Positions 3,439 through 45,260 of a stretch of 64,000 bases of DNA are shown here, one piece after another; position 1 is the first letter of the stretch; each line of letters starts with the position of its first letter. The DNA is taken from assembly GCA_902362805.1 (NCBI GenBank), contig CABIXY010000006.1, positions 1 to 64,000 on the forward strand. Reading direction: 5' to 3'. This DNA is from Eubacteriaceae bacterium (GTDB lineage: Bacteria; Bacillota; Clostridia; Peptostreptococcales; Anaerovoracaceae). The notes under the pieces are model-generated. The model made no database searches and was not told where the DNA came from. It was given only the letters and a program-made list of their open reading frames with translations. Position numbers and translations under genes: made by a program.

Positions 3439-3771
3439 TTACATACCTCCCAAAATCATTTCGTACACTTCTGCAAGTGCCACCTGTACATCGGTCAGTC
3501 CGTTGGTGTTCGCTGTGATAACCTCAAGAATCTTTTCCTGTTGGGTCTTTTCACGGAACGCCAGATAGAATGTACCGTCAGCCCATTCCATCTGCTGAAT
3601 GAAGACCATATCCTTGAAGGTCTCCTCTGTTTCACCATCGGAAACAGTCATAGTGGAGAGGTTATTCTCAAAAATACTCTCGTCCACCTTTTCAGTGCTT
3701 ACGAAATTGTCACCGTTCTTATCAAGCCCGGTCAGCTTTCTTCCGTCAGCAAGGGTGATTGTGTACTGCAT
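3439..3771 (-). CDS. Phage protein of unknown function
   Basis: 110 residues, probably beta-rich at the start (MQYTITLADGRKLTGL), with a helical end (ILEVITANTNGLTDVQVALAEVYEMI). AAAGGAGG lies 8 nt before the ATG, inside the end of the reverse transcriptase gene, with which it overlaps by 40 nt. The C-terminal phrase resembles small tail-associated proteins that precede the CD1375-like gene. I do not recognise a function. Confidence 0.7.
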   Translation of the reverse strand: MQYTITLADGRKLTGLDKNGDNFVSTEKVDESIFENNLSTMTVSDGETEETFKDMVFIQQMEWADGTFYLAFREKTQQEKILEVITANTNGLTDVQVALAEVYEMILGGM

Positions 3772-5003: not shown

Positions 5004-5631
5004 TCACAGAATCGAAATCGGGGCGAACGCCATTAGAGTTACTGGCGTTGTTGTAGTTCGCATTACCGTTGTTGTTGACATTGGCGAAATTGGAAGCGGA
5101 ATCAGAGATTGCCCTCTTAAATTTATTGTCTGACTTTCTCCAACCTTTGAGAAGATTTATCTCAGTCTGTATCATGTCAGCAAAACGAAGATATTTGTTC
5201 ACATCAACAGGGAGAGTTTCAATCGCATACTGCAATTCCTGTGTCAATCTGTAACACTGTCCGATAGCTCTGTCTTGATGTATTCTCCGTTCAATAAGCT
5301 CCTCCATACAGGTTGGGTAAATGCTGTTTGCAACGAATACCTCCTCACAGATAGAGCGTAAACAATCAACAACGGTCTGTCTCTCATCTACAATGAACCA
5401 TTCATCAAAGGCTTTGTTTTTCGCCATGAGCTTTTCATATCGGGCTTTTTCTTCGGGTGTAAGTTCCTCGAATGTCTTATCGCCGAACATCTTCATAGCT
5501 TTCTTTTCGGCTCGTTCAAGGTCGTACCCGAAATCTCTAAGCAGTAAATCTGTGACTTCTTTTCTCATTTTGTAGAAGTGATGGAACACTTCAAACTGTG
5601 ACACTTTTCGTTTTGACTTTAATACTGACAT
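4996..5631 (-). CDS. Avd-like DGR accessory protein with template repeat as its tail
   Basis: Accessory variability determinant that binds the RT and template RNA. 211 residues. Residues 1-175 look like a helical bundle; phrases such as RRIHQDRAIGQCYRLTQEL, LPVDVNKYLRFAD and LLKGWRKSDNKFKR match Avd-like four-helix proteins. It is longer than the usual ~125 residues. The last ~35 residues are asparagine-rich (NVNNNGNANYNNASNSN) because they are read from the template repeat. GGAGG lies before the ATG. The stop TAG overlaps the RT start. Whether the Asn-rich tail has any protein role is unknown. Confidence 0.9.
   Translation of the reverse strand: MSVLKSKRKVSQFEVFHHFYKMRKEVTDLLLRDFGYDLERAEKKAMKMFGDKTFEELTPEEKARYEKLMAKNKAFDEWFIVDERQTVVDCLRSICEEVFVANSIYPTCMEELIERRIHQDRAIGQCYRLTQELQYAIETLPVDVNKYLRFADMIQTEINLLKGWRKSDNKFKRAISDSASNFANVNNNGNANYNNASNSNGVRPDFDSVIE
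5019..5101 (-). repeat. DGR template repeat (TR)
   Basis: 83 bp, inside the avd reading frame and just upstream of the RT. On the coding strand it has 24 adenines, 22 of them in eleven AAC/AAT codons whose randomisation at the first two bases cannot make a stop codon. It aligns without gaps to 5687-5769 and 31879-31958; all mismatches fall on these adenines. Unlike the variable copies it has no GC hairpin downstream, as expected for the unchanging donor. Confidence 0.95.
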
Positions 5632-5645
5632 TGATTACCTCCTCA

Positions 5646-5666
5646 TGCGCCCCACAAGGGGGCGCA
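5646..5666 (-). promoter_or_regulatory. Hairpin after VR1 (probable retrohoming signal)
   Basis: TGCGCCCC (5646-5653), loop of 5, GGGGCGCA (5659-5666): a perfect 8-bp stem that ends 3 nt beyond the stop codon of target gene 1. No T-run follows on the minus strand, so it is unlikely to be a terminator. In the phage BPP-1 system a hairpin just after the variable repeat is required for efficient retrohoming; the same role is inferred here. Confidence 0.8.
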
Positions 5667-5669
5667 GAT

Positions 5670-6542
5670 TTAAGATATTGCGAAAGCGGGGCGAACGCCA
5701 AGAGAGTCACTGGCGTAGTAGTAGTACGCACGACCGTAGTAGTTGACACTGGCGAAATTGGAAGCGGAAATAACATCTCTCAGCCACCATGTCGCTCTGT
5801 TGCAAATCCTGCTCGGCTCATGCTGGAATAGTGGCAACTGGCTTTTTTCCACACGGTAATTGTTCGGAACAGTAGTACCATCGGAAACAGGGCTGAAAAC
5901 GCCATTACCGTAAACCATGTGTTCGCACATCAGGTCAACTTCGCTGTCGCACCATGCACCAGCAGAAGCCCTACCATTGGAAACTGCGTTCGAGAGATAA
6001 ATTCTCTTGGAGAGAACATGACCGCTGAACGCCGCCTTGATGGTAGTTTTCGCCTGAGCCAGCCCTTCTTTGTACATCTTCGAGTTTACATACGCACCTG
6101 TAGTGGTATTTGTATCATTCATGACATGATTGTACAGACAAGTATCAGGGACAAGCACGACATGATGTTTTGTACACTCCGTATCACCGCAATGCAGATA
6201 ATAGTCAAACGCCGCAATACGATACACTACATCATTGATAGTCCAGTAATCACCGATGTACATATCCTCGAAAGTACCAGCGGAAATTGCGCTATACTGA
6301 GCTGTAGTCACAGATGTACCCAGCGACTTACCACGATAGATTGCATTGTGCGCTCCTGCGTTATTGAAAAGCAGAGGGGCAATCTTATCTTCCGTACCTT
6401 CGACTGTTTTTGCCTTAAAATTGGCAAAAGTCATTTTCTTCAATCCTGCGCCATCGTGAACCAGTACGAGATTATCGTCAGCAATGGTTTCAATGGCGGC
6501 AAGGTCTGTTGCCTTTTTGGTTTCAATGCTAATAGCACTCAT
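5670..6542 (-). CDS. DGR target 1: tail-tip protein with variable lectin-like domain
   Basis: Probable receptor-binding tail protein, 290 residues. The N-terminal part (to about residue 50) looks like a tail attachment segment. From about residue 85 it carries a DUF6273-like, C-type-lectin-type fold (YIGDYWTINDVVYRIAAFDYY, LSKRIYLSNAVSN, TWWLRDV, GVRPAFAIS). The variable repeat covers residues 259-286 and is tyrosine-rich (VNYYGRAYYYYASD). The gene follows the baseplate genes and directly precedes avd. AAGGAGG lies before the ATG. The receptor role is inferred from position and from known DGR phages. Confidence 0.88.
   Translation of the reverse strand: MSAISIETKKATDLAAIETIADDNLVLVHDGAGLKKMTFANFKAKTVEGTEDKIAPLLFNNAGAHNAIYRGKSLGTSVTTAQYSAISAGTFEDMYIGDYWTINDVVYRIAAFDYYLHCGDTECTKHHVVLVPDTCLYNHVMNDTNTTTGAYVNSKMYKEGLAQAKTTIKAAFSGHVLSKRIYLSNAVSNGRASAGAWCDSEVDLMCEHMVYGNGVFSPVSDGTTVPNNYRVEKSQLPLFQHEPSRICNRATWWLRDVISASNFASVNYYGRAYYYYASDSLGVRPAFAIS
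5687..5769 (-). repeat. DGR variable repeat 1 (VR1)
   Basis: Aligns to the template repeat over 83 bp with 11 substitutions, all at template adenines (A to G, C or T) and none at the other 59 positions. It encodes the last variable stretch of the tail-tip protein. The downstream flank and hairpin at 5646-5666 mark the homing end. Confidence 0.95.
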
Positions 6543-9868: not shown

Positions 9869-10240
9869 TTACTCGCCAGTATCAATCAGGTTTACTTTGC
9901 AATTCCTGTAGTGAGTAGGTCTTCCGTTTTTATCAACCCAATACGGTTCACCTTCACGGTCTCCGCAGTACATTCTCACAGTCTTTCGACCATTCGTAAC
10001 GGGGTCATTGAAAGTTACATATACAAAGAATTGTCCAAGAATACTCAGAATGGTTTCCCACTGAGCCGCCGTAAGCCACGCCCATTCAAGACCGTCAATT
10101 TTATACTGGTCTCGTCCGACACGCTGACCTACGACCGCTCCGTTTGCGTCACGCCCTGAATCAACAACGGTTGTTACCACCACCTTGACACCACGCTTGC
10201 AAGGTGGTAACTCATAACCATTGATTTCCAAATATGCCAT
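9869..10240 (-). CDS. DUF6711-like tail protein
   Basis: 123 residues starting MAYLEINGYELPPCKRG; ATG 10240 chosen for GGAGG 8 nt upstream. Contains WAWLTAAQWETIL and TVRMYCGDREGEPYW, typical of a small protein found between tape measure and baseplate genes in clostridial phages (DUF6711). It may act as a distal-tail-type component; this is inferred from position. Confidence 0.72.
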   Translation of the reverse strand: MAYLEINGYELPPCKRGVKVVVTTVVDSGRDANGAVVGQRVGRDQYKIDGLEWAWLTAAQWETILSILGQFFVYVTFNDPVTNGRKTVRMYCGDREGEPYWVDKNGRPTHYRNCKVNLIDTGE

Positions 10241-10255
10241 TGTTACCACCTCCAA

Positions 10256-13200
10256 TTACTTCACAAAACTATAACCATTCGCTTTCTGCTGTGTAATCAC
10301 AGCGTCATTTACAGTACGATTGCCGACCTGAACGATGGTCTGTTCATTCTTATCAGCCTGTCGCTTTGTATCATCGGCAATTTCTCTAAGAGTAGGCTCA
10401 ACATATTCCTGATAGAACTCCCTCATTGCACGAGAGAAAGATTCGTCACTAAAGGAGTTATTGATACCTCTTTGAGAATCCTCATATACCGAACTTGCCA
10501 GTGTATTTGTCGGGTCATATCCAGCTCCAGCCGTAGCAAGGCTTGCGTTCATCATGTCAGAGCTTACGAGGATAGAGCGAATAATCGCATTGGAGCATAC
10601 CGTCATTTGACTGTACATACTTCTCCAATAGCCCGTAAACTGAGCCATACCCGATACCACGGCATTTTTCATAGCCATTGCGATTTGGGAGCGATTGAGA
10701 ACTTCGGTCTGACCGTTGATATGTCCAACCATCTCAGCTCCATTTTCGCCAGCTACGAACATTGAGCCATGTAAACCAGCGTTGGTTGTACCATTTGCGT
10801 ACATCGGAATGTTCTTCCAAAATTGAGCCTGTCCGTTATCAATGAAGCCACCTCTCTCGAAGAACTTCCAGCCGTGTCCTGAGTTATATCCTCCATCAGA
10901 CAATCCGAAGAATTTCTTCAACGAAGACCAGCCTGACTTGAACAGTGATACACCTACGGACACTTTATCTCCAATCCAAGAGGAGAGAGAAGACCAGCCC
11001 GACTTAAACAACGAAATACCGACAGATACTACATGAGAGCCTATCCAGTTTTTAATCGAAGTCCAGCCGCTCTTTATCAGAGAGATACCCTGACTGATTA
11101 CGGGGATATTGCCAATCCAACTTTTAACTGTAGTCCAGCCTGATTTAAGAAGCGCAATACCCTGAGACAATACTGGAATATTACCAATCCAGTTCTTTAT
11201 GGTAGTCCAACCGCTTTTCACCAAACTGATAGCCTGTGACAAAGTAGGAATGTTCCCAATCCAATTCTTCACAGTAGTCCAGCCACTCTTGATAAGGCTT
11301 ATCGCCTGAGAAAGTGTAGGAATGTTACCAATCCAGTTTTTAACCGTTGTCCAACCCGACTTCAAAAGGCTAATTCCTTGGGAAAGAACAGGGATATTGC
11401 CAATCCAGTTCTTTATAGTAGTCCAGCCCGATTTGGCAAGAGAAACCATCTGAGAAACGGACGGTATATTACCAATCCAACCTTTCACAGTTTCCCAGCC
11501 CGACTTTGCAAGACTGACAGCCTGAGACACACCCGGAATTTTGCCAATCCAACCTTTTACAGTAGACCAGCCTTTCTTAACCAGCTCAACGCCAGCTTCA
11601 ACCGAGATACCATCTTTTGTTACATCAGCCCACCAGCCTTTCGCTTTCTGCCACAAGTCAGAAGCGTTATTTTTAATATCAACAGCAAGCTCTCCAACAG
11701 GGCTGTTTTCGATAGCTTTTTTGAGAGGGTCAGTGATATTCGACTTAACCCAATTCTTAGCTCCTGTGAATTTCTCGGATAATCCTTCCTTAAATTTCTC
11801 GCCCCATTCACCAGCCGCTTCTTTGATATTGTCCAAAGCATTTTTGCCGTCAGCACCTTTGGTGAAGAACTCTTTGGCATTACCAGCCCAAGTTGTTATG
11901 GTTTCCTTTGCTCCTTCGAGCTTTTCACCAACCCAATCCTTGAACTCGCCGAACTTGTCAGCAACCTTTTTAAGTCCTCCCGATACGGTATCTACGATGG
12001 AATCCCAATTCATAGCCGCCGCACTACCCAGCGCACCTGCACCAGCAAGGATAAGACCGAGACCAAGCGGAATACCAACTCCCGTAAACACGAGAATAAG
12101 TCCGATAGCCAAAGCCGCCGTACCAGCAATAATGAGAATCTTTGTGGTAACGCTCTTGATTTTCTCTACAAGACTGTTCCAGTTCAGAGCAACTGCTGTA
12201 GCGAGCGAAGCCGCACCAGCCAGCATAAGCCCGACACCCAATGCCGTTCCAACACCAGTAAAGGCGAGAATTGCACCGATAGCCAAAGCCGCCGCACCGA
12301 CAATGACAAGAATCTTCGTCACTGTACTGCGAACCTCATCGGTCATAGAGTTCCAGTTCAGACCTACCGTAGTTGCCAGTCCAACAGCACCAGCCGCAAG
12401 CAATGCAACACCAAGACCAGTAGCGACACCCGACAAAGCGAGAACGGCACCGATACCAAGAGCCGCACCACTAATGATTGCGATAATACTGTTGACAGAA
12501 TCCTGAACATCTCCCGAAAGCGAGTTCCAGTTCAGGGCAACAGCCGATACCAGCGATATTGCACCAGCGGCAATCATACCTACACCGAGAGGAATATTTG
12601 CTCCCGTGAAAGCAAGAATTGCACCGAGGGCAAGTAATGCACCGCCTACGATACCTTCCAATAGCCCAATGGTTCTACGCAACGGGTCTGACATGGAATC
12701 CCAATTAAGCCCGACAGAAGTAGCAAGTCCAACAGCACCAGCCACCATCAATGCGATACCCAAAGGAGCGTCTACGCCAGTGAAAGCGAACAGCGCACCC
12801 ATAGCGAGCAAAGCACCGCTCACAATACCTGTGAGAATGGAAAGAGCATTTTTCAAATCGCCGTTCAAGAACTTCCAGTTAATTGCAACGGCAGTACCGA
12901 GTGCTACAGCACCAGCAACCATGAGACCAGCACCAAGAGGTACATTAACGCCTGAAAATGCAAGGAAAGCACCGATTGCCAGTAAGAATCCCGCAAGAAT
13001 ACTCGTTACCGTGGTTAAGGTCTTCGCAAGCCTTTCGGACATATAATCCCAATTCTCTATCACCACAGAAGCAAGTCCTACCGCTCCAACAGCCATAAGA
13101 CCAAGACCGAGAGGAATATTAGCCCCCGTTACAACGAGAATCGTACCGATTGCCAGTAAAAATCCGCTCACAACAGCTGTGATTTCATTCAGCGCACCCA

Positions 13201-27007: not shown

Positions 27008-27065
27008 TTTTCTAACCTCCTGTATTTAATCCGTTTCGTGTTGTTTCTTGTCTTAACTTGATTAT

Positions 27066-27094
27066 AGTATAATCCTTTTTGTGTTATATGTCAA
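27066..27094 (-). promoter_or_regulatory. Consensus promoter of accessory cassette
   Basis: Minus strand TTGACA (27089-27094), 17 bp, TATACT (27066-27071). It lies about 60 bp upstream of the start at 27007 and drives the five-gene cassette. The remainder of 27095-27280 shows no gene. Confidence 0.8.
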
Positions 27095-27283
27095 CCCTTT
27101 TCGGATAAATTTTTAATCTTTTTCGTGTTATTTTTTCATCGTTTACGGATTGCTATATATAATAAGGAAGGAACACGAAAACGGCGGCGTTTTGCTTTAA
27201 TGTAGTGAAGCGACAGAGCGAAAAGGGGGTAAAATTGAAAAATCGTCAAAATTTCTGTGAGATTTTCGGTGAAAAAATGGCAT

Positions 27284-28918: not shown

Positions 28919-29107
28919 TCACCTCTGATGGTAGAATCTTTCTACCTTTTCTCGTAGATTCTTGACCGTAGTCTTCAAGCCGAAATTTTCTCGCTTTAGC
29001 TTTGTATACTCTTGCTCGACAAGTTCCATCACTTTATCAAGTCGAGCTTCTGCGTCATATCCGTCTCCGCACATGAGAGGACGGATTTTATCTTTTAAGG
29101 TTTTCAT
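28919..29107 (-). CDS. Small coiled-coil protein
   Basis: 62 residues from ATG 29107. C-terminal two thirds form a likely coiled coil (DKVMELVEQEYTKLKRENFGLKTTVKNLREKVERF). It overlaps the previous gene by one base. Function unknown; oligomeric scaffold or regulator is possible. Confidence 0.65.
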   Translation of the reverse strand: MKTLKDKIRPLMCGDGYDAEARLDKVMELVEQEYTKLKRENFGLKTTVKNLREKVERFYHQR

Positions 29108-29634
29108 CACACCACCTCAAATTCTTTTATCTTACGCTCATAGAGAGCCTTGATACGGTCAGGCTTGTCAGTGATTACTTCACACTCATTGCCGATATAT
29201 TCAATATAGATTTTCTCAGCGTGGGTTGGAGGAGTGTAAGGAAAAGTCACTGTCTTTCTGAATCTACCACTCGAAAACCAAGTGATACCTCCGTTATCAG
29301 AAACTACATAAGCGTCAATGTCCTCACAATGAATGATATTCCCGTGTTTATCTTTATCCATGAAAACACTCGAACATCGCCTGTTTTGACAATGAATCAA
29401 ACCATTTTTCTCATAAACTTCGTTCCACTCATCATCTTCACCAGTAAGAGGGGTGATAGGCTTAAACCTCAAAAGTCTCTCCAAAATTGATAGCGCATAG
29501 CTTGCCGAAAAATCACTGTGACCTTGCTTACTGAATTTTTCAATGATTTCGAGAATCTGATTGTTTATCCTATCCTGCATACCATCGTTGTCTTTATCAA
29601 TTCGAGCAAGTTCTCTTTTTGCATATTCGAGCAT
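29107..29634 (-). CDS. Conserved phage protein of unknown function
   Basis: 175 residues. The block from about 22 to 70 (ILEIIEKFSKQGHSDFSASYALSILERLLRFKPITPLTGEDDEW) is widely conserved in phages of Firmicutes. Two Cys pairs (HCQNRRCSSVF) could bind zinc. GGAGG is upstream. The conserved family has no established function that I know of. Confidence 0.75.
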   Translation of the reverse strand: MLEYAKRELARIDKDNDGMQDRINNQILEIIEKFSKQGHSDFSASYALSILERLLRFKPITPLTGEDDEWNEVYEKNGLIHCQNRRCSSVFMDKDKHGNIIHCEDIDAYVVSDNGGITWFSSGRFRKTVTFPYTPPTHAEKIYIEYIGNECEVITDKPDRIKALYERKIKEFEVV

Positions 29635-29636
29635 AC

Positions 29637-31145
29637 TTACAGCACCTCCTTTAATTTAACTCCCCAGTAAATAACGAATCCGCTGGAAGTCGATTTCCTA
29701 TCGAACCACTCAGGGTGTCGCTCCATCTCGGCATTGAACTTCCTTGCAGATAGGACATAAGCACCCTCGGATTTCGCCCAAATCTTAAAGGCTTGATAGA
29801 GGTCTTTTGCCTTAATTAGCACCCGAGATTCCTTTGTACCGTATTCATCGGCATTTTCAAATCTCTCACAGCGAGCTTCGAGGAATTGCAACACAATGTC
29901 GTTGTCATTCTCGTATTTCTTAACAACCTTGCGAAGCTCCTCGCTCATGGTAAGCCCACGCTCTTTGTAGCGAATATATCCACGAATCAGCCACATGAAA
30001 ATACCACTCATGTTATGCTGTTCGCACAGCTCATCTTTAAGGTGAGTGTCCTGCTCCTCAGGTGTGAAGTGGCGATTAAACTCAATCACTTTGATACGCT
30101 CAGAAGCAAACAGACTTTTGTCCGTTACCATCGGCAAATCATTACAGGAAAGCCAAAGAGTGAACTGCGGCTTGAATGTGATAGCCGACTGATATAAGGC
30201 ACGAGCTGAGATTTCCTCGCCGCCCGTAAGCTGTTTGATTTTCTCCTCGTCCAGCTTGCCATACTCATTACTTTCTGACATGGTGACAAAGCGTTTACCT
30301 TTAAGACCAGCGAGGGTAGGGGAAGCGGCTTCTGCGTCTTTCTGCCTGTCTCCACGGCAAATCATGCCGACAGGGGCAACTTTTGCATAATCACCCAGCA
30401 TGGTTTCGATGGTATTGAGCAAGGTGGATTTACCGTTTCTCGTAGTCTTGCCATGAAGAATGAACATACACTCCTCATTGCTCATACCAAGCATGGAATA
30501 CCCCAATGCTCTTTGAAGAAAATCAGCCTTGTCTTTATTTCCCTGAGTGACTTCATCAATGAATTTTTCCCATCGCTCACAGCGTACATCACGAGAGATA
30601 GTGTGACTGAAAGCGGTCTGCATGGTGAGAAAGTCTTCCCAATTATGCTCTCTGAAAGAGAAGTCTCTGAGGTCGTATGTACCATTCAGGCAATTTATGA
30701 GATAAGGGTCGCTGTCAAACTGTACCGCTGAGATACGAAGCTCTCCTGTAGCGTCTTTGAGGATTCTGTCTCTCATGCGTCTGTCACCCATTTTGTTGAC
30801 GAAGTTTGTATAGGATTTTCGCAAATCATCGTCTTCGATTTCTCCGCAGTAGAGAATCATCAGGCGAACGAAGTCTTTGATTTTCTCAGATACGAGAATT
30901 GCTCCTTCGTCTTTTCTCCAAGCTCCCTCGAAGTATGTGTACCAGCTTTTATGTTCAGGACAGTATCGAGCTTCCTGTGAGTAGAGCAGACCGAAGAGAT
31001 TTGCCATACCCATTTCAGACCATTCAAAGCCTGAGCTGGTTTCGTCAGCTTTTTCAGGGTGATAATGCTTAATGAGATACATCTTTGCGGACAAATCCTC
31101 GTCCATGATTACCCGTCCGTTTCGGGTCTCAAAAAGCTCCTGCAT
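29637..31145 (-). CDS. D5/P4-family replicative helicase-primase
   Basis: ATP-driven DNA helicase of phage replication, 502 residues. N-terminal D5-type region, then a superfamily 3 helicase domain with Walker A GKTTRNGKSTL near residue 225, Walker B-like KRFVTMSESNE, sensor-like LWLSCNDLP, and the typical C-terminal IKVIEFNRHF and WLIRGYIRY. The separate priming domain is supplied by the gene at 32570. Between the two primase/helicase genes sit the second DGR target, a small gene and a PemK-like gene, so the module looks interrupted by cargo. GGTG precedes the ATG. Confidence 0.88.
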   Translation of the reverse strand: MQELFETRNGRVIMDEDLSAKMYLIKHYHPEKADETSSGFEWSEMGMANLFGLLYSQEARYCPEHKSWYTYFEGAWRKDEGAILVSEKIKDFVRLMILYCGEIEDDDLRKSYTNFVNKMGDRRMRDRILKDATGELRISAVQFDSDPYLINCLNGTYDLRDFSFREHNWEDFLTMQTAFSHTISRDVRCERWEKFIDEVTQGNKDKADFLQRALGYSMLGMSNEECMFILHGKTTRNGKSTLLNTIETMLGDYAKVAPVGMICRGDRQKDAEAASPTLAGLKGKRFVTMSESNEYGKLDEEKIKQLTGGEEISARALYQSAITFKPQFTLWLSCNDLPMVTDKSLFASERIKVIEFNRHFTPEEQDTHLKDELCEQHNMSGIFMWLIRGYIRYKERGLTMSEELRKVVKKYENDNDIVLQFLEARCERFENADEYGTKESRVLIKAKDLYQAFKIWAKSEGAYVLSARKFNAEMERHPEWFDRKSTSSGFVIYWGVKLKEVL

Positions 31146-31151
31146 TTCCCA

Positions 31152-31622
31152 TCACCTCACTGTTACTCTGTCAAGAAGCTGTTCATAGAGCGTCTTGTAG
31201 AGATTCCTTTCGACATAAACAGTAGAGGTGCTGTTTTCTGTATTATCAACCTCTCTCTCTATAGAAACAGAGAGACCAAGAGAAACAGCCATAGCCTTGT
31301 CGATTGCCGCCATTTCCTCAGCGGAACAGCTTTTTATGAAATCTCCGATTCTGTCTTTTGTTACCGTATAAATAGTTTCACAAAGGGCAGTAGAAGGGAT
31401 TTTGCATACGATACCTACATGGGTAGGCATGGGCTTCTTATCTCTCGTTGTAAGATATACAACCTCTACAACAGATGAACTTTTATTAAGAATATCGTTT
31501 GATACGATAATAGCAGGTCTCCCCGCTTCATTTTCGGGGTCTGTAGCGTAATATTTTGAATTTGCAATATAGAAAATATCGCCACGCTTTATATCAGGTG
31601 TGTCACTCATGTAATATGACAT
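31152..31622 (-). CDS. PemK/MazF-like protein
   Basis: 156 residues. KRGDIFYIANSKYYATDPENEAGRPAIIVSNDILN and VYLTTRDKKPMPTHVGI are the hallmark phrases of the MazF/PemK barrel; these toxins cut mRNA at short sites. No antitoxin-like gene is adjacent: the upstream neighbour encodes a Cys-rich 58-residue protein. It may be a solo effector that shifts host metabolism, or may be held by another phage protein. It lies in the cargo segment with DGR target 2. Confidence 0.8.
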   Translation of the reverse strand: MSYYMSDTPDIKRGDIFYIANSKYYATDPENEAGRPAIIVSNDILNKSSSVVEVVYLTTRDKKPMPTHVGIVCKIPSTALCETIYTVTKDRIGDFIKSCSAEEMAAIDKAMAVSLGLSVSIEREVDNTENSTSTVYVERNLYKTLYEQLLDRVTVR

Positions 31623-31837: not shown

Positions 31838-31858
31838 CTCGCCCCATAAAGGGGCGAG
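31838..31858 (-). promoter_or_regulatory. Hairpin after VR2 (probable retrohoming signal)
   Basis: CTCGCCCC (31838-31845), 5-nt loop, GGGGCGAG (31851-31858). It has the same 8-bp stem, the same 5-nt loop length, the same GCCCC/GGGGC core and the same 3-nt gap after the stop codon as the hairpin after VR1. No T-run follows, so it is not a terminator. Confidence 0.82.
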
Positions 31859-31861
31859 ATA

Positions 31862-32440
31862 TTAAGATAAGAGAAATACGGGGCGAACGCCACTAGAGTA
31901 ACTGGCGTAGCCGTAGTCCGCACCACCGCCGTAGCCGACAAGGGCGAAACCGGAAGCGTATTCCTGATGGCGATTCATCAGCCAATACCATTCCCAAGCA
32001 CCTTCCTTACCCTGAAAAGCAATACGATTTCTACGCTTCTTCATAGGCTTCCAGCGTTTTACCTTCTTATCCTCAGCCTGTCCATAGACATTCTCACCGA
32101 AGATTTCTTTCTCGGAAGGAATGCGAAGCATATCACCCTCTGTATTGACTGCAATCATGCGGCTTCTGATTTCTTCGGGGAAGCGAGCAATGATTTCTCC
32201 ATTCAGGGCTTTGCGAAGGTCAGAGTTCATATAAGTAATATCGTCTTCGTCCATACCATCAATGTTCTTAAACATCGGATATTCCTTAGCGAGACAATCT
32301 ACCAGCACAAACAGCATACCCTCAGGTTTTTCTTTGACAGCTTTTGCCTGTACCTTTTCTCCATCGGTGAGCTTGAATTTAATAACATCGCCAACCTCGA
32401 ACATCTCTACATCTACAGTCATGGTTCTCTTTACTTCCAT
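31862..32440 (-). CDS. DGR target 2: variable DUF6273-like protein in replication module
   Basis: 192 residues from ATG 32440 (AAGGAGG 8 nt upstream; no better start). FEVGDVIKFKL near the start, MNSDLRKALNGEIIARFPEEIRSRMIAV and LRIPSEKEIFGENVYG match DUF6273-type lectin-fold proteins, and the end GVRPVFLLS matches target 1. The variable repeat covers about residues 161-187 and is glycine/tyrosine-rich (VGYGGGADYGYASYSSG). No signal peptide or membrane segment, and the gene lies between the primase and helicase genes, so the product is probably cytoplasmic and not part of the tail. Own promoter at 32494-32522. Function unknown. Confidence 0.88.
   Translation of the reverse strand: MEVKRTMTVDVEMFEVGDVIKFKLTDGEKVQAKAVKEKPEGMLFVLVDCLAKEYPMFKNIDGMDEDDITYMNSDLRKALNGEIIARFPEEIRSRMIAVNTEGDMLRIPSEKEIFGENVYGQAEDKKVKRWKPMKKRRNRIAFQGKEGAWEWYWLMNRHQEYASGFALVGYGGGADYGYASYSSGVRPVFLLS
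31879..31958 (-). repeat. DGR variable repeat 2 (VR2), remote
   Basis: Aligns without gaps to the template repeat 26.9 kb away. 17 of the 24 template adenines are substituted, and no other base differs across the 80-bp core; the match ends 3 bp earlier than in VR1. It has diverged further from the template than VR1, so it has been rewritten independently. Confidence 0.93.
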
Positions 32441-32493: not shown

Positions 32494-32522
32494 AATATAA
32501 CATTTAAAAGATTGAATGTCAA
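32494..32522 (-). promoter_or_regulatory. Consensus promoter of DGR target 2
   Basis: Minus strand TTGACA (32517-32522), 17 bp, TATATT (32494-32499), giving a start about 48 nt upstream of the ATG at 32440. This would allow the target and the following MazF-like and helicase genes to be transcribed separately from the early promoter. Confidence 0.8.
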
Positions 32523-32569
32523 TACATAAAATGCAATTTCTTATCTTTTTCGTGTTAAAATTTATAATT

Positions 32570-33364
32570 TCATCGCTTATACCTCGTAACGCTGTTGCAA
32601 ATGGTTCTTAGCTCATATCTATCAAGGGGAGGGTCACAGGCTACGGTGTTTGCATAAAGAAGCTCGTCATATATCTGCCCTTTGCTGTACCCCTGATTGT
32701 GTAACATACCAGCAAGAGAGGTGAGACAAATATTGCGGCTTCCGTTCGGGATTCTCGGATAAACAGGTCTGAGCTTCACACGACCATCTACAATCGGGTC
32801 TTCCCAAACAGGTGAATAGATTTTGTCTCTGCCGACAATCATTTTATTTGAGGTATCTCTTGTCTCAGGAAAATATTTCTCAACCACATAGTCTATGGCT
32901 TCCTGATTTTCAATGATGTCTCGATACAATATCACATCGCCTGTCATGATAAAGTACCTTGCCGCTTTATAAATCTCCACTCCTTTAAGGTTGTTCTTTC
33001 CCTTGAAGGGGAGAGTTCCCCGAAGCAATATATGAAAACCTCTACCGCTTCGGGATTTCTCCGTATAGCTGTGGCATTTCCCGACAATATCTGCACCGAG
33101 GACACTTATGAATCCTTCATCGTCATATCCATCGTCAATGTCGATTCCCACATACCCGTTATCTGCAAACACAAATCCGCAGTAGTCATAGTATTTGTTC
33201 TTTACAGATTCGAGAGCAGTATCGAAATCCGACCATGTTTCAGGATTAGTTGAAGAAGCGGCTTCGTTTTCCCATGCTTTCATAGGAACTTTACTACTGT
33301 CCGAAGCGCAAACCCATTGATTCAGATTCTTTAATTCCTCAGGAATATTGTCATAACAAACCAC
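32570..33364 (-). CDS. Phage primase (archaeo-eukaryotic-type primase fold)
   Basis: Makes primers for phage replication, 264 residues from GTG 33364 (GGTGG 9 nt upstream); ATG 33394 would add ten residues. GYVGIDIDDGYDDEG carries the catalytic acidic pair of AEP-type primases; KCHSYTEKSRSGRGFHILLRG and KGVEIYKAARYFIMTGD are the following strands. The end (GMLHNQGYSKGQIYDELLYANTVACDPPLDRYELRTICNS) is a PriCT_1-like domain. It pairs functionally with the helicase at 29637. Confidence 0.85.
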   Translation of the reverse strand: MVCYDNIPEELKNLNQWVCASDSSKVPMKAWENEAASSTNPETWSDFDTALESVKNKYYDYCGFVFADNGYVGIDIDDGYDDEGFISVLGADIVGKCHSYTEKSRSGRGFHILLRGTLPFKGKNNLKGVEIYKAARYFIMTGDVILYRDIIENQEAIDYVVEKYFPETRDTSNKMIVGRDKIYSPVWEDPIVDGRVKLRPVYPRIPNGSRNICLTSLAGMLHNQGYSKGQIYDELLYANTVACDPPLDRYELRTICNSVTRYKR

Positions 33365-33644
33365 GTCTCTTAGCCACCTTTCTTTCAAGCTCATTCACAA
33401 GTTTCCAAACAGTGTCTTGCTTCATACCATTGAGCTTTGCGGTCTGATAAACATTATCTGCGACTGTATCTCCATCTCGATAGATAGCGGTAAGTAAATC
33501 TCTCTCCTTATCCGTAAATCCCTCTAAAGCGTCCTTACAGGCAAGCCAATTATTTTTATCAGCGGCACTGTGGAACTTTGGATTGGGGTGTCTCACATAA
33601 AATCGGAGACAATGATTTACATATTCAGAATAAAAAGTTCGCAT
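33351..33644 (-). CDS. Small helix-turn-helix protein
   Basis: 97 residues. N-terminal FYSEYVNHCLRFYVRHPNPKF, then FTDKERDLLTAIYRDGDTVADNVYQTAKLNGMKQDTVWKLVNELERKVAKRRG, which has the spacing of a sigma-region-4-like helix-turn-helix. Similar short proteins occur in clostridial phages, possibly as transcription or late-gene regulators. Overlaps the primase gene. Confidence 0.65.
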   Translation of the reverse strand: MRTFYSEYVNHCLRFYVRHPNPKFHSAADKNNWLACKDALEGFTDKERDLLTAIYRDGDTVADNVYQTAKLNGMKQDTVWKLVNELERKVAKRRGLL

Positions 33645-35833: not shown

Positions 35834-36865
35834 TTATTTCACAGTCATACGATACTGTGTAGTCTTCTTACTGTATTTATCTAAAAGCCCATCGGCTTTC
35901 AGAGCGTCTTTATCAACACTGGTGGTCTCAGAACGAGATACTGTCCAAGTGTATGTAGAACCCTTGACCTCAACCTTTTTGTCACCATCTCGGAACTGAG
36001 ATACGGCGTGTTCCTTGATAATATCGTTGATGGTCTTGAGCCTTTTCTCCTTCTCGGCAGTAGTAGCGGCTACCTCGTCCAGTTCTTTTTTAAGACCTTC
36101 CGCTTCTTTGATGAGACCATCAATATCGGTTTCAGGAGAAAGCGTATTCGTTCTCAATGCCGCCAAAATCTCTGCGTCTTTCTTTTCATCGAAAGCAGGA
36201 GAGATACCAGTCTCGACATAATCAGACCACCATTTTTCAACCTGTGCTACCTTGTCTGCGAAATCAGGGTAACGCTCAGATACCTTGAACTCTACCGTAA
36301 TGGTGTTCTTGATGTTAGGCTTGTACTTCTTCGGGTCTTCGTAATCTTTCTCCTCAAGGAATGAAGCAACCATGATAACATCGTCAATACCAAGCAGATA
36401 TGCGTAGAGAGCCGCCTGTAATGCGTAATACTCAGGAATATCGTTTTCCCAATCCTCAGCCCTCTTTGTGGTCTTCATCTCCAAAACAGCGTCAACTTTT
36501 CCATCTTCATCTTTGGAAAGGTAGTCCCACATACCGCCGAGATGAGGATTCTCAGGGAAGAAATCGCCCCATGTCTTATTGAAATAATCCTTACCCCACA
36601 TATCGGTAGGAGAGATAATGTCCATCGCATAGGACTTTTTCATATAAGCCGCCTGTTTCGGTTCGATGGTCTTACCAGCGATGGTATAGATGGTGTCCTC
36701 AAAAGGCTTTTCATAAGTCTTGGTGATAGCACACCACATCTCAAATTCTGTAGACCAAGGGTTCAGACCGAGAATGGTAGCAAATCGAGTACCTGTGATT
36801 TTCTTTGTCTTTTTCGGAGGGGCAATCTGAATACGATTCCCCTCAATCCATTTAATATCAGCCAT
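35834..36865 (-). CDS. YqaJ-family recombination exonuclease
   Basis: 343 residues. Lambda-exonuclease-type nuclease: GTRFATILGLNPWSTEFEMWCAIT at 25-48, then GGMWDYLSKDEDGKVDAVLEMKTT (catalytic acidic residue and E-x-K) and PEYYALQAALYAYLLG (conserved Gln). The C-terminal ~120 residues are helical, with a coiled-coil region near 250-290. It degrades DNA ends and pairs with the ERF annealing protein encoded just upstream; the two overlap by one base. Confidence 0.88.
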   Translation of the reverse strand: MADIKWIEGNRIQIAPPKKTKKITGTRFATILGLNPWSTEFEMWCAITKTYEKPFEDTIYTIAGKTIEPKQAAYMKKSYAMDIISPTDMWGKDYFNKTWGDFFPENPHLGGMWDYLSKDEDGKVDAVLEMKTTKRAEDWENDIPEYYALQAALYAYLLGIDDVIMVASFLEEKDYEDPKKYKPNIKNTITVEFKVSERYPDFADKVAQVEKWWSDYVETGISPAFDEKKDAEILAALRTNTLSPETDIDGLIKEAEGLKKELDEVAATTAEKEKRLKTINDIIKEHAVSQFRDGDKKVEVKGSTYTWTVSRSETTSVDKDALKADGLLDKYSKKTTQYRMTVK

Positions 36866-37584
36866 TATTCTTCGCTCCCTTCTCCAAGCATTTCTTTGAT
36901 ACGGTTGATAAGCTCCTCGCAGTCAGACTTTGAAATCTCAGTAAATCCCTTTGTCTGAACAGCAATATTAGAAATCATTTCTTCCTTAGACGGGTCTGCT
37001 TCCCTAAGCTGTTTCAGAACTGCTTTCAACCCTTTAATCTGCAAGGAAGTAGCATTGTCATTAGGAGCGGTAAGTTCCTGCTTTACTTCCTGTCTCTGCT
37101 GAGGAGTTGCAGGAGCTTTTTTCTCTGTCTGAGCAGGGGCGGTGTCATTGCCGATATTTGCGTCAATGGAATCACTTTCACAAATATCAAGAGCCATCAT
37201 ATAGAGATAGCGGCGCATATAAGTAATGGAAGAACCGAGAGCCTGCATTTCGTTTGTAGCCTGTTTTCCAGCATTGCTTACGATAGGAGCAATCTGATTG
37301 AACGGTGCTGTAAAAGAAATGCTTTCTTCGGGATTATCTGTGTTGATAATACTCATTGTCGCTGTATCGGCGGTGAAGTTCACAATAGGAATCAAGCCGA
37401 CCTCATTGAAAATGCGGATTGCAGAAGGTACAATATCGTCAAGCTCGAAATACTTGAACGACAGGTGCATATTCTTTCCTGTCTTCTGTACATCTGCTTC
37501 GAGGAACTTCGCCCTCGCTGTGAGCAAACGCTGATAAACATTTGCGTCCTTGGTTTCTTTTGCGGTAGCTTTAGTAGTAGCCAT
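36865..37584 (-). CDS. Possible internal start: ERF annealing protein alone
   Basis: 239 residues from ATG 37584, with AGGAGG 9 nt upstream (37594-37599), inside the polymerase-ERF frame. It would yield a normal-sized ERF recombinase that anneals single strands during recombination. Either both forms are made, or a lost stop codon joined two neighbouring genes. Confidence 0.6.
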   Translation of the reverse strand: MATTKATAKETKDANVYQRLLTARAKFLEADVQKTGKNMHLSFKYFELDDIVPSAIRIFNEVGLIPIVNFTADTATMSIINTDNPEESISFTAPFNQIAPIVSNAGKQATNEMQALGSSITYMRRYLYMMALDICESDSIDANIGNDTAPAQTEKKAPATPQQRQEVKQELTAPNDNATSLQIKGLKAVLKQLREADPSKEEMISNIAVQTKGFTEISKSDCEELINRIKEMLGEGSEE

Positions 37585-39378
37585 TTTCTTAGTCCTCCTC
37601 TTTTTTTCAGGTTTTATGCCTTTGAAATCATTGACACGCTTCTTAGCCATTTCGATGTAGAAAGATTTATCCACATCAGAAATGCTTAATTGATTGTCGT
37701 TGTCGATGATACAGTGTTCGGGAAGCATTTCTATTTTGGCTGTGGAATCGTCCTCAGCTTTTACCTTGAACAACTTCCCATACCGCTCGTCTGCGGTAGC
37801 GTAAACTCGGTTTACTTTTTGCACAGGCTCTTTCACACCATCGACCATGTGATAGGCTTCACGGTATTTAGCCCCAGCTTTAGCAATGATTTGAAACTGA
37901 AATATATCGGTGCAATCATTGATGGTTTCTTCCACGGGAGTACCGTTTACAAAGTATTCTTTCAGTGCAGTAGCCACGATACAGCAGGAATTGTTGATAT
38001 TGAACGCTCCTACTGTAGAGATACCTTTAACGAGATAACCTCCTTTGGCTTTGGACTTACCATCAGCCTGTACCTCAACATAGTTATTCACATCTTTCTG
38101 AGCTATCTTGGAAACCGAATCCGTTTCAAGCTCAAACCCTGTTCGTGACTGCCATTCTTCACAAATTGAATCGACAAGCTCTAACTGGTCTCTGTCACAT
38201 TCCAGCATGATACCGTCTGTATTGAGCTGTACGATTTTCAATCCGTCTACCTCAGAGTAGAGATGTTCAGCCAATTCCAGTAAAAATAACTGTCCAGTGA
38301 TACAAACCGACCTTCCCATGAGAGGGTCAAATAAGTCATTGTACTTGTTCAGCAATGCCCCATAAGTGGTGTTCACAACGAGCTTCAAAGCGTTTGCTGT
38401 GGCTTTATCACCGCTTGCTTTAGCTTTCATTCGAGTGTCAAGGACATTCTCGAATATCTCAGCCGAAGGAATGTTTCGTGAGGTATACCCACATAGGGTC
38501 ATGAGGTGAGGGTAATAACTTGCAACATCTTTGTTGCGTATTACTCTGTTCTCGCTCTCCTCGAAAAAGTAATTTGGTATAGCGGCATGAATACCACCGT
38601 AACCTACAACCCCGGGGCAATCTCCAATTTTGAAATCCAGCTTTCCGCTGAATAATTCCTTGTCAGAAATTGACGGGTCGTACATCTTATCAAAGAAAGC
38701 GAAGACCTCGGGCGGTATGTACTCACGGAGCAACTTCTCAGGGTAAACATACTTCCTCTCATCGTCATGAGGTTTCTTTGACGCTTTCAGCATTGCCGCT
38801 GTAAGTTTGGCATTTGTCATACCCATTGCACGAACATCAGTCAGCCCAGCCAATCGTCCGATATGTACCTTGTTTTTGAGGTAATCTTTACGAATATCAA
38901 TCAGCTTTTCTGCGGTATCAACATCGTGCTTACAGTAATACTCGGTCTCTTGCTTTTCCTCAGCGGTGAGAGGTCGGTCAATGTCGAACGGTACGGTGCT
39001 TTCCTTGACGGATAAACCGAGGTGTCCTTCAATAGCTTTCAGAGACAAGCCCATCTGCATATCGTCCTTGATGTCAACATTACTGAAAGCAAAGTAGAAA
39101 TCTTTAAGCATTGGACAATCCCAGCCTTGACCTCCACCGATGATGTAATCATTGACTTGTTTAATCTCTTGGGGAGTGAACCCTGCGACAATGGCTTTTA
39201 TGATGAATTGGTCGTAGTGCTTCGAGTTGAATCCTACATAAATGCAATCATCAGAAAGAGCCATCTTTAGAGCTTCGTTGTCATTCCAAATACAGGTGTA
39301 AGCTCCTGTCTCTTTGTCTTTCAGGGTTACAAGCCAATCATAGGCAAACACCTCACAGTCATAAGTGATAAGTCTCAT
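36865..39378 (-). CDS. DNA polymerase fused in frame to ERF annealing protein
   Basis: 837 residues. Residues 1-598: DNA polymerase with an N-terminal exonuclease-like start (LITYDCEVFAYDWLVTL, Asp-x-Glu), IGDCPGVVGYGGIHAAIPNY, the palm motif NKDVASYYPHLM, the LKLVVNTTYGALLNKY region and VQLNTDGIMLEC (DTD-like). Residues 599-837: ERF-superfamily single-strand annealing protein (KNMHLSFKYFELDDIVPSAI, NEMQALGSSITYMRRYLYMMAL) with a Glu/Lys-rich end. No stop lies between. An AGGAGG at 37594-37599 precedes an internal ATG at 37584, so ERF alone may also be made. Confidence 0.88.
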   Translation of the reverse strand: MRLITYDCEVFAYDWLVTLKDKETGAYTCIWNDNEALKMALSDDCIYVGFNSKHYDQFIIKAIVAGFTPQEIKQVNDYIIGGGQGWDCPMLKDFYFAFSNVDIKDDMQMGLSLKAIEGHLGLSVKESTVPFDIDRPLTAEEKQETEYYCKHDVDTAEKLIDIRKDYLKNKVHIGRLAGLTDVRAMGMTNAKLTAAMLKASKKPHDDERKYVYPEKLLREYIPPEVFAFFDKMYDPSISDKELFSGKLDFKIGDCPGVVGYGGIHAAIPNYFFEESENRVIRNKDVASYYPHLMTLCGYTSRNIPSAEIFENVLDTRMKAKASGDKATANALKLVVNTTYGALLNKYNDLFDPLMGRSVCITGQLFLLELAEHLYSEVDGLKIVQLNTDGIMLECDRDQLELVDSICEEWQSRTGFELETDSVSKIAQKDVNNYVEVQADGKSKAKGGYLVKGISTVGAFNINNSCCIVATALKEYFVNGTPVEETINDCTDIFQFQIIAKAGAKYREAYHMVDGVKEPVQKVNRVYATADERYGKLFKVKAEDDSTAKIEMLPEHCIIDNDNQLSISDVDKSFYIEMAKKRVNDFKGIKPEKKRRTKKMATTKATAKETKDANVYQRLLTARAKFLEADVQKTGKNMHLSFKYFELDDIVPSAIRIFNEVGLIPIVNFTADTATMSIINTDNPEESISFTAPFNQIAPIVSNAGKQATNEMQALGSSITYMRRYLYMMALDICESDSIDANIGNDTAPAQTEKKAPATPQQRQEVKQELTAPNDNATSLQIKGLKAVLKQLREADPSKEEMISNIAVQTKGFTEISKSDCEELINRIKEMLGEGSEE
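37594..37599 (-). promoter_or_regulatory. Ribosome site inside polymerase-ERF frame
   Basis: AGGAGG on the minus strand, 9 nt before ATG 37584. It supports independent translation of the ERF part. Confidence 0.65.
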
Positions 39379-42960: not shown

Positions 42961-44430
42961 ATCAAAGCGGTAATCTATGCTCGCTATTCGAGCCATAACC
43001 AACGAGAAGAATCCATAGAGGGTCAGCTTCGAGAATGTCAGGAGTTTGCCATAAAGAATGGGTTTGTAGTAATAGATGAATATATTGACAGAGCGATTTC
43101 AGGTAAAACGGATAACCGCCCAAGTTTTCAGCGTCTTATAAAAGACAGTGAAAAAGGACATTTTGACGCTGTGATTATGTACACTCTTGACCGTTTTGCT
43201 CGTAACCGATATGATTCGGCAATTTATAAAGCAAAGCTCAAAAAGAACGGTGTCCGTGTTTTCTATGCGAAACAGCCTATGCCTGATACCCCCGAAGGAA
43301 TCATTTTGGAATCTGTGCTTGAGGGATATGCTGAGTATTACAGTGAAAATCTTGCTCGAAGCATTAAGCGAGGTCTCAAAGAAAACGCCCTCCATAAGAT
43401 AGCGATGGGAAGTCTTGCTCTTGGATATAAAATTGGAGAAAACAGACAATATGAAATAGAACCCGTGGGGGCGAAAGCTGTTCAGGCAATATTCACTATG
43501 TATGCCGAAGGGAAATCACAGACTGAGATTGTGGATTGGCTGAATAATAATGGATTCAAAACTTCACGAGGAAACTCTTTTAATAAAAACAGTCTTGGTA
43601 GGATTTTAAGAAATGATAAATACATAGGCGTTTACCGATATGATGATGTAACTATAGAGGATGCTATACCTTCCATAATAGACAAGCCTTTGTTCGATAA
43701 GGTGCAGTCATTACTCCATCACAACTTTGCTTCACGGGCAAGAAATAAAGCCAAGGAAGACTATCTGCTGTCTACGAAGCTGTTCTGCGGTCATTGTGGT
43801 AGCCCGATGATAGGAGAAAGCGGCACATCAAAGACAGGTAGAATGTATTACTACTACAAATGCGCCAAGCGTAAACGAGGAAAGAGCTGTGAGAAGAAAG
43901 TGGAAAAGAAAGACTGGATAGAAGAATTGGTTGTTCGATATACAGTTTCCCATGTTCTCACAGATGAAAATATAGAGCTTATTGCCACCCGAGCGATGGA
44001 GCTTATAGAAAAAGACCTACAAGATACATCTGTTCTCATAGGTCTACAGGGATTGTTGAAAGATACCAATAAAAAGATTAAGAATCTCATGGCGGCTATC
44101 GAACAAGGTATTATCACCAGCACCACTAAAGAAAGACTTGAGGAGCTGGAACAAGAACGATTAAATATCGAAGGACAAATAGCACGAGAAGAAATGAAAA
44201 AGCCGCTCTTATCGAAGGAGCGCATTGTATATTGGCTCACCTCATTTAAGAGCGGCGATATAAAAGATGTAGAGTATCAACGAAGAATCATAGATACCCT
44301 TGTGAACTCTGTCTTCGTGTATGACAACGGAGACAAAGGGCGAAGAATCGTACTGACCTTCAATGTTTCAGGGAACAATACCCTCACTATCGAGAGTTCG
44401 GATATTGAGGGCATAGCTCCACCAAAATAA
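42961..44430 (+). CDS. Large serine integrase with non-standard start codon
   Basis: 489 residues if read from ATC 42961. Domains: catalytic (KAVIYARYSSHNQREESIEGQ with the active serine; DAVIMYTLDRFARNR), recombinase domain, zinc ribbon (LFCGHCGSPMIGESG..YKCAKRKRGKSCEKK) and a coiled coil (LKDTNKKIKNLMAAIEQG). There is no ATG, GTG or TTG in frame between the stop at 42922 and GTG 43171, which is past the active serine. GGAGG at 42949-42953 is 7 nt before ATC 42961 (ATT 42958 is the alternative). The last codons carry CTCCACCAAA, the attachment core. Confidence 0.9.
   Translation: MKAVIYARYSSHNQREESIEGQLRECQEFAIKNGFVVIDEYIDRAISGKTDNRPSFQRLIKDSEKGHFDAVIMYTLDRFARNRYDSAIYKAKLKKNGVRVFYAKQPMPDTPEGIILESVLEGYAEYYSENLARSIKRGLKENALHKIAMGSLALGYKIGENRQYEIEPVGAKAVQAIFTMYAEGKSQTEIVDWLNNNGFKTSRGNSFNKNSLGRILRNDKYIGVYRYDDVTIEDAIPSIIDKPLFDKVQSLLHHNFASRARNKAKEDYLLSTKLFCGHCGSPMIGESGTSKTGRMYYYYKCAKRKRGKSCEKKVEKKDWIEELVVRYTVSHVLTDENIELIATRAMELIEKDLQDTSVLIGLQGLLKDTNKKIKNLMAAIEQGIITSTTKERLEELEQERLNIEGQIAREEMKKPLLSKERIVYWLTSFKSGDIKDVEYQRRIIDTLVNSVFVYDNGDKGRRIVLTFNVSGNNTLTIESSDIEGIAPPK
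44417..44426. repeat. attR core of prophage / attL of second island
   Basis: CTCCACCAAA, identical to 925-934, within the last codons of the serine integrase. It marks the right end of the prophage and the left end of the decayed tyrosine-integrase island. Inferred from repeat identity and position. Confidence 0.75.
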
Positions 44431-44435
44431 CATTG

Positions 44436-44465
44436 AAAAACCAACGTTTCTAGACGTTGGTTTTT
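44436..44465. terminator. Bidirectional terminator
   Basis: AAAAACCAACGT (44436-44447), 6-nt loop, ACGTTGGTTTTT (44454-44465): a perfect 12-bp stem ending in T on both strands. It separates the serine integrase (plus) from the tyrosine integrase remnant (minus). Confidence 0.9.
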
Positions 44466-45260
44466 ATTTGGCTACATTTTGACTACAATTTTTGATTTTT
44501 GAGTAATAATTATTTAGTTCGTTTGAAATTTGATCATCGACATTGTTGAACAGATATTCATAGGTTTCTGCCGTAATCCGTGTGTTGGCGTGTCCTAATC
44601 GCTTGGATATGTCTATAATTTTTGTCCCCCTATCTGATAACATGGCAGCATGGGTATGACGAAGGTCATGTATCGTGGCTTTTTTAAGTCCATGTTTAGC
44701 CTGAAAATAAGTGAACCATTTATACAGATTACGTGGGTGTTGCGGACTGCCAGTGACCGTTACAGCGATATAACCACTTTCTTGATATTCCTGCCCCATC
44801 TTTTCTTTCAAATCGTCTTGAAAGTCTCGTAAATCATTTAGCATTTCCATAACAAACACAGGCACAGAAATCTTCCTGATGGAGTTCTCGCTTTTTGGTG
44901 TATCTGTTACAATCCCAACGGTGGATACGTACAACCGTTCTCGCTGAATGCTGATTGTATTATTGACGAAATCAACATCACTCCATTTAAGCCCCATTAT
45001 TTCCCCATTGCGCATCCCTGTAAAAAGAACAAGATGTAGAAGTGTGGCGTGTGTAATTGACCTAGGTTTTTTTTTATTCGGCTAACAAAAGTGACAGCAG
45101 ATGCTTCACTTCCTCACGGTTATAGTATTTATCTGCTGTTGTGGTATTTAGCGCAACAGCCTCTAAATTTCCATCATCTCCGATTTCGTATTCGTTGGGT
45201 TTCACAGCAATTCTTGTGCATGGATTTTTGTTGGTAATTTCCAAATCGTAAATAGCATAT
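44464..45260 (-). pseudogene. Tyrosine integrase remnant, truncated and frameshifted
   Basis: C-terminal part of a Tn916-type tyrosine recombinase. The catalytic residues survive: FTGMRNGEI (Arg), ATIHDLRHTHAAM (His-x-x-Arg), GHANTRITAETY (His and Tyr). The reading frame breaks in an A-run near 45070-45080 (…HLLSLLLAE in one frame, ITHATLLHLVLFTGM in the next). The N-terminal arm is missing: integrase sequence stops at about 45260, where VirB4 sequence begins on the other strand, so a deletion or recombination joined them. It lies just inside the left att copy, the usual place for such an integrase. Confidence 0.85.

Follow-up and report, generated by a model that had tools for sequence, protein, structure and literature searches.

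Most accounts of phage DGRs treat them as devices for switching tails. In Bordetella phage BPP-1, adenine-specific transfer diversifies a single tail target, and a GC-rich hairpin downstream of the variable repeat (VR) is needed for efficient homing (PMC3240598). In the Bacteroides phage Quimbyvirus one template feeds two targets. One is structural; the other, distal and judged non-structural, is encoded on the opposite strand within an island related to defence, with defence and counter-defence genes close by (Benler et al. 2021, PMC8008677). A distal second VR is also known from four inducible gut prophage species, where it lies far from the reverse transcriptase (RT) cassette and in the vicinity of counter-defence genes, a DNA methyltransferase among them (Nature 2025, PMC12629997). 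In the Faecalibacterium prophages Lelie and CP11 one DGR serves two DUF6273 targets, a large one and a small one, each with its VR at the C-terminus, and the parts of that text covered here propose no role for the small target (PMC11792537). Phages nd4 and nd12, with their tentaclins, have two targets per template, both DUF6273 proteins with a predicted C-type lectin fold, located in the DGR cassette and read as receptor binding (PMC10743442). These accounts are taken from portions of the cited papers.

The window, the whole stretch of 64,000 nucleotides analysed here, carries a prophage DGR with one template and two targets. In contrast to Quimbyvirus, both targets lie on the same strand and the distal one is a lone DUF6273 protein, encoded among replication genes and preceded by a predicted promoter of its own, a comparison made by description rather than by sequence. 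With the four gut prophage species it shares the placement of the second VR, a likeness of position; it differs from nd4 and nd12 in that one target is remote. By analogy, the small DUF6273 target of Lelie and CP11 may belong to the same kind. The preliminary description of this stretch had put it forward as a candidate for an undescribed system. As far as the covered parts of the papers go, Quimbyvirus and the four gut prophage species are published cases of a phage DGR whose second target is distal and non-structural (PMC8008677, PMC12629997), so the kind of system is not undescribed. In the literature searched, a body of mostly non-subscription papers, no account turned up that treats lone DUF6273 proteins as recurrent DGR targets of the early region.

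The DGR cassette lies at the tail end of the prophage, and the second target gene with its repeat (VR2) lies far from it:

3732-5003, minus strand: DGR reverse transcriptase (RVT_1, E=4.7e-14; phrog_1423, E=3.3e-59)
4996-5631, minus strand: Avd-like ORF, its 3' end holding the template repeat (phrog_3206 Avd, E=1.8e-4)
5019-5098, minus strand: template repeat (TR) with 24 adenines, inside the 3' end of the avd-like ORF, between the RT and the VR1 target
5670-6542, minus strand: VR1 target of 290 aa, with a virion-protein-like N-terminus (phrog_27494, E=9.1e-8) and a DUF6273 C-terminus (E=2e-5)
5687-5766, minus strand: VR1, the variable repeat of the tail-region target; 11 of 24 adenines changed and no non-A changes relative to TR
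31862-32440, minus strand: VR2 target gene, encoding a 192-aa lone DUF6273 protein (Pfam DUF6273, E=4e-10; phrog_21980, E=5.6e-20)
31879-31958, minus strand: VR2, gapless relative to TR; 17 of 24 adenines changed and no non-A changes

Two DGR hallmarks are present: an RT with Avd and a template repeat alongside (by Pfam and phrog matches and repeat alignment), and A-specific TR-VR differences, 17 in VR2 and 11 in VR1, with no other base changed in either core. VR2 is identical to TR at 56 of 56 non-A positions. When both strands of the 64 kb are scanned with tolerance for changes at A, the non-A mismatches to VR2 number 0 for TR, 8 for VR1 and at least 19 for the next sites, which rules out a chance match. 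The second DGR target outside the tail module is genuine. On recomputation, the preliminary description proved exact in its gapless alignment and its 17 of 24 changed adenines, and it was right to place the target outside the tail: VR2 lies 26.8 kb from TR, beyond the structural module and between primase genes. Its picture of a 192-residue DUF6273-like protein without signal peptide, encoded between primase and helicase genes, also stands, given the DUF6273 match and the lack of a hydrophobic N-terminus by hydropathy, with the addition that a MazF-like gene shares the interval. The gene starts at an ATG at 32440, downstream of AGGAGG; a longer reading of 213 aa is also possible.

TR sits within an open avd-like frame, so that translation would add it to the protein as an Asn-rich tail at the C-terminus; in L012 and L013 as well the ORF match extends through the repeat. 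A tmRNA gene (561-932) lies near one prophage end, and a serine recombinase and a tyrosine-integrase piece (43171-45015) lie near the other. No direct repeats occur within either of the two end stretches, each scanned apart from the other.

Both variable repeats are followed by a hairpin:

31838-31858, minus strand: hairpin 3' of VR2, 8-bp stem and 5-nt loop, 20 nt beyond the core (DNA fold -10.7 kcal/mol, z -7.15)
5646-5666, minus strand: hairpin 3' of VR1, 8-bp stem and 5-nt loop, 20 nt beyond the core (DNA fold -11 kcal/mol, z -2.78)

Both stems are GC-rich, so that VR1 and VR2 alike have the GC-rich downstream hairpin that is a feature of DGRs. As far as BPP-1 is described in the covered part of the paper, the 8-bp stem fits, as does the distance, which falls inside its 4-34 bp range; BPP-1 has a 4-nt GRNA loop and a single tail target, whereas the window has two targets and a 5-nt loop at both VRs. 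The GRNA loop is a trait of one described DGR group and not of all DGRs (PMC3240598). The TR flank has no comparable hairpin; its fold is weak (z -1.37, with 21 of 200 shuffles as good).

By Pfam and phrog, the VR2 product consists of a single DUF6273 (lectin-like) domain and has no virion-type N-terminal part. Hydropathy gives no TM-like stretch, hydrophobic N-terminus or export signal. The traits of Mtd-type tail targets, a place in the tail module and a virion-type N-terminus, are absent here, whereas the VR1 target has a virion-like N-terminus. The predicted structure is of low confidence in its C-terminal half, which includes the variable face, and a 65-sequence alignment brought no improvement. 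With this model Foldseek returns nothing under E 0.001 from the PDB and two matches from BFVD, one of them named DUF6273. Sequence search found no solved structural relative, and PADLOC, whose library consists mostly of defence proteins, has no family for the protein.

Across lineages, the variation of natural homologues is concentrated at the codons that hold template adenines. For the best 120 of 1765 homologues of the VR2 protein, taken together with the window, mean entropy is 2.80 bits at the 13 template-A codons, 0.07 bits at the 16 other residues between the first A-codon and the protein end, and 0.19 bits in the remaining protein. Ser180 is the one template-A codon with almost no variation. 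A second set, the best 120 of 1034 homologues of the distant member G032, gives 2.97 bits for 14 A-codons, 0.31 for 12 other VR codons and 0.54 upstream. These figures are differences between lineages rather than changes within one culture. The 117 VR2 sequences that match the motif, among the best 120 of 1765, are all distinct from each other across 12 sites. Judging by these alignments, the VR2 locus is hypervariable in nature; the hypervariability claimed earlier thus holds in a distant clade too, and VR2 is not invariant.

VR1 and VR2 vary in much the same way. Per-site residue use was compared between 117 of 120 VR2 and 94 of 119 VR1 homologues (the others did not match the motif, and the window's own VR1 was excluded), and at the 12 sites only site 10 differs after correction (p=0.002). 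With spectra so nearly alike, no selection specific to VR2 is evident. Template residues kept average 2.2 for VR2 and 2.6 for VR1 over 12 sites; VR2 keeps fewer, and the remote arm is therefore diversified at least as deeply. Variable residues common to VR1 and VR2 of one phage show no clear excess (0.157 vs 0.126, permutation p=0.095) in the 17 phages compared; two more that were tried, G002 and G037, yielded no VR1. A common ligand for both repeats thus has no clear support.

Remote targets of this type recur in other phages. Our profile search covered 46 RT loci, mostly on longer contigs, drawn from the best 80 of 139 confirmed IMG/VR RT loci. A full-length, separate relative of the VR2 protein is present in 15 of the 46 RT-bearing viral contigs, which may be incomplete; in G018 and G041 a separate match is truncated where the contig stops. 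Since VR1 targets match the profile too, each of the 46 gives some match. Among possibly incomplete contigs of at least 40 kb, 12 of 17 have the separate full-length relative (G015, G021, G030, G035 and G051 do not), and G034 has two copies of the VR2-type gene. Since G031 and G032 encode the same VR2 stretch, the number of independent phages is smaller.

Aligned to the template of its own contig (16 rows from the 15 contigs), VR2 has no non-A mismatch in 11 rows, one in three and three in two; 11-20 of 22-26 adenines are changed, and elsewhere in the RT locus the best site has 8-15 non-A mismatches. A GC hairpin after the stop was read by eye in 15 of the 16 rows, G050 having been left out of the reading. 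The template of G005 has non-A differences from the window template that its own VR2 also carries, a sign of homing after divergence.

Among 50,697 records of named phages, only two match the VR2 protein, Shimadzu and Fontainebleau, where the relatives are deposited as hypothetical proteins. Shimadzu orf43 lies ~14 kb from its own template (14 of 28 adenines changed, no non-A changes), and the Fontainebleau ORF ~25 kb from its own (15 of 23 adenines and 1 of 84 non-A positions changed). The Shimadzu tail fibre is mutated by a DGR according to part of a meeting report (PMC6563222). GTDB contigs supply two further relatives, in Clostridiales and Lachnoclostridium MAGs. There is no RVT_1 match in G008, G009, G010 or genome G057, whose contigs may be incomplete; direct search finds a partial RT in G008. 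The 88-kb contig L009, also without RVT_1 match, has a tandem pair of VR2-type genes (10001-11974). The search of related prophages that the preliminary description called for has thus found the same remote target in 15 of 46 RT contigs and two named phages.

The genes around VR2 in the window are of replication and conflict type:

32570-33394, minus strand: PriCT_1 primase, upstream of the VR2 gene (Pfam/phrog match)
31152-31622, minus strand: MazF-like gene, downstream of the VR2 gene (PemK_toxin, E=2.2e-18)
29637-31145, minus strand: D5 primase-helicase, downstream (Pfam/phrog match)
29107-29634, minus strand: homologue of Tad3, of the type I Thoeris inhibitor family, directly after the D5 gene (Pfam PF25185, E=7.1e-35; anti-Thoeris is the family name)

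Counter-defence and defence neighbours are thus present, the Tad3 homologue 2.2 kb downstream of the VR2 gene and the MazF-like gene nearby. Tad3 occurs in only 2 of 26 related records, the window and G045, and adjoins the VR2 gene only in G045, which rules it out as a constant partner. DUF6353, which we did not find mentioned in the literature searched, occurs in 11 of the 26 records and directly follows VR2 in 10 of those 11 (L134, L135, L136 and relatives); at 11 of 26 it is likewise ruled out as a general partner. Scanned for hydrophobicity, two of three DUF6353 proteins have two hydrophobic stretches and one has a single region.

The VR2 gene lies downstream of the PriCT primase in the window, L001-L003, L005 and L006, and the D5 primase-helicase then follows where the contig extends. 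Elsewhere the arrangement changes. G016 has a PriCT-D5 interval of 320 bp without the VR2 gene, which instead sits directly 3' of a helicase, and in G015 the interval spans 7.5 kb, again without it. In G008 two small ORFs next to an HTH repressor-like gene precede VR2, and the helicase comes after it. The Fontainebleau relative has a DNA polymerase on one side and a helicase on the other, the Shimadzu relative adjoins Erf, and in G048 no more than ~3 kb separates the target from the RT. GmrSD_N is a neighbour in L001 and L011, and methyltransferases are in G016 and Shimadzu. Neighbours were annotated at part of the loci; those read are genes for replication, repressors or methyltransferases or are unassigned, and none is a tail gene. 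We infer that the VR2 gene is an accessory gene that has moved among early modules. A packaged tail gene moved by chance, the finding that would have undercut the earlier claim, is ruled out by recurrence at several distinct non-tail places. As a separate observation, 36865-39378 is a single 837-aa ORF with a DNA polymerase part and an Erf-type annealing protein part, which match separate places in G016.

We favour an intracellular binder, with counter-defence as its most likely role. The product of this second, remote DGR target would be a small lectin-like protein, likely inside the cell, that most probably grips and blocks variable host defence proteins; taken whole, this is a tentative reading that falls just short of an even call. 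Copies of one template would home into VR2 in an ongoing process, the gene would be expressed from its own predicted promoter or an early operon, the hypervariable face would bind a protein, and that protein would belong to host immunity. A diversified face without a catalytic part suggests that the domain works by binding. Early-region position and conflict-type neighbours (Tad3, GmrSD_N, methyltransferases) make an immune protein the likeliest partner, although Tad3 in 2 of 26 records renders the counter-defence context suggestive only. For the proposal count A-only rewriting, the hairpin at the target, A-codon hypervariability, recurrence away from tail genes and the lack of an export signal; against it count the rarity of Tad3, the lack of a PADLOC family, the similar VR1 and VR2 spectra, the low-confidence variable face and the G048 target so near its RT.

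Expression bears on the main rival, superinfection exclusion, in which the VR2 protein, made from its own promoter in the lysogen, would bind variable early proteins of rival phages and stop them. Two features lie upstream of the gene:

32494-32522, minus strand: predicted own promoter of the VR2 gene, TTGACA-17-TATATT with a TG extension (11 of 12 matches)
32543-32557, minus strand: 15-mer TAACACGAAAAAGAT, a possible operator, with an inverted partner at 32498-32512 (3 mismatches)

Such a dedicated promoter, with a 15-mer that is absent from the repressor region, would suit this rival, as would the GmrSD_N and MazF-like neighbours of some relatives, and cytosolic variable proteins attacking viral replication complexes were proposed in a 2023 paper, in the part covered (PMC10053308). 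The promoter is one of four sites at 11/12 in a window that has no overall excess (41 sites vs 40.0 in shuffles). Its position is kept in L001 and L002/L003, and the inverted 15-mers around it have 0+3 mismatches in the window, 0+0 in L001 and 0+1 in L002. Against the rival, the promoter is weak in G017 and absent from most other relatives, which sit in early operons; its absence fits operon expression there. We regard superinfection exclusion as unlikely, yet as the alternative most worth keeping.

A virion role is disfavoured. The protein could be made early, then packaged, and bind the cell surface or enter with the DNA; its fold family is common to the VR1 target and other DGR receptor-binding proteins, and one template feeds both targets. 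Unlike the VR1 target it has no virion-type N-terminal domain, the neighbours read are non-tail genes, and the two repeats of one phage have no clear excess of shared residues, and we consider this role improbable. Equally improbable are two further readings, an accessory role in replication and neutral homing of the template into a related gene as a by-product: replication genes adjoin VR2 in several lineages, but replication partners are conserved in the window clade (82-91% in L002) and give no reason for hypervariation, while the intact ORF, near-invariant remainder and kept hairpin argue against a by-product.

The recurrent second target in the early region gives a single retroelement a further protein to diversify, one that likely acts inside the cell. 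Should the ligand prove to be a host immune protein, phages would hold an evolvable anti-immune repertoire. More broadly, lone DUF6273 domains could be widespread intracellular 'antibodies' of phages that use the tail protein's template, with receptor binding and immune evasion evolving in parallel and the intracellular arm as deeply diversified as the tail arm, a serious possibility that we nevertheless rather doubt. Remote targets would escape detection in the 2021 global DGR survey, as described in the covered part of the paper (PMC8144416), and their layer may therefore be undercounted. The two sets of 120 natural variants are ready material for direct testing.

The only other exact copy of the 15-mer in the window is at a second 11/12 promoter (27066-27094). 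The surrounding region, 27029-27130, holds two or three copies and precedes a 104-aa gene without assigned function (phrog_4264). Going by the repeated motif, a common regulator may act at both promoters.
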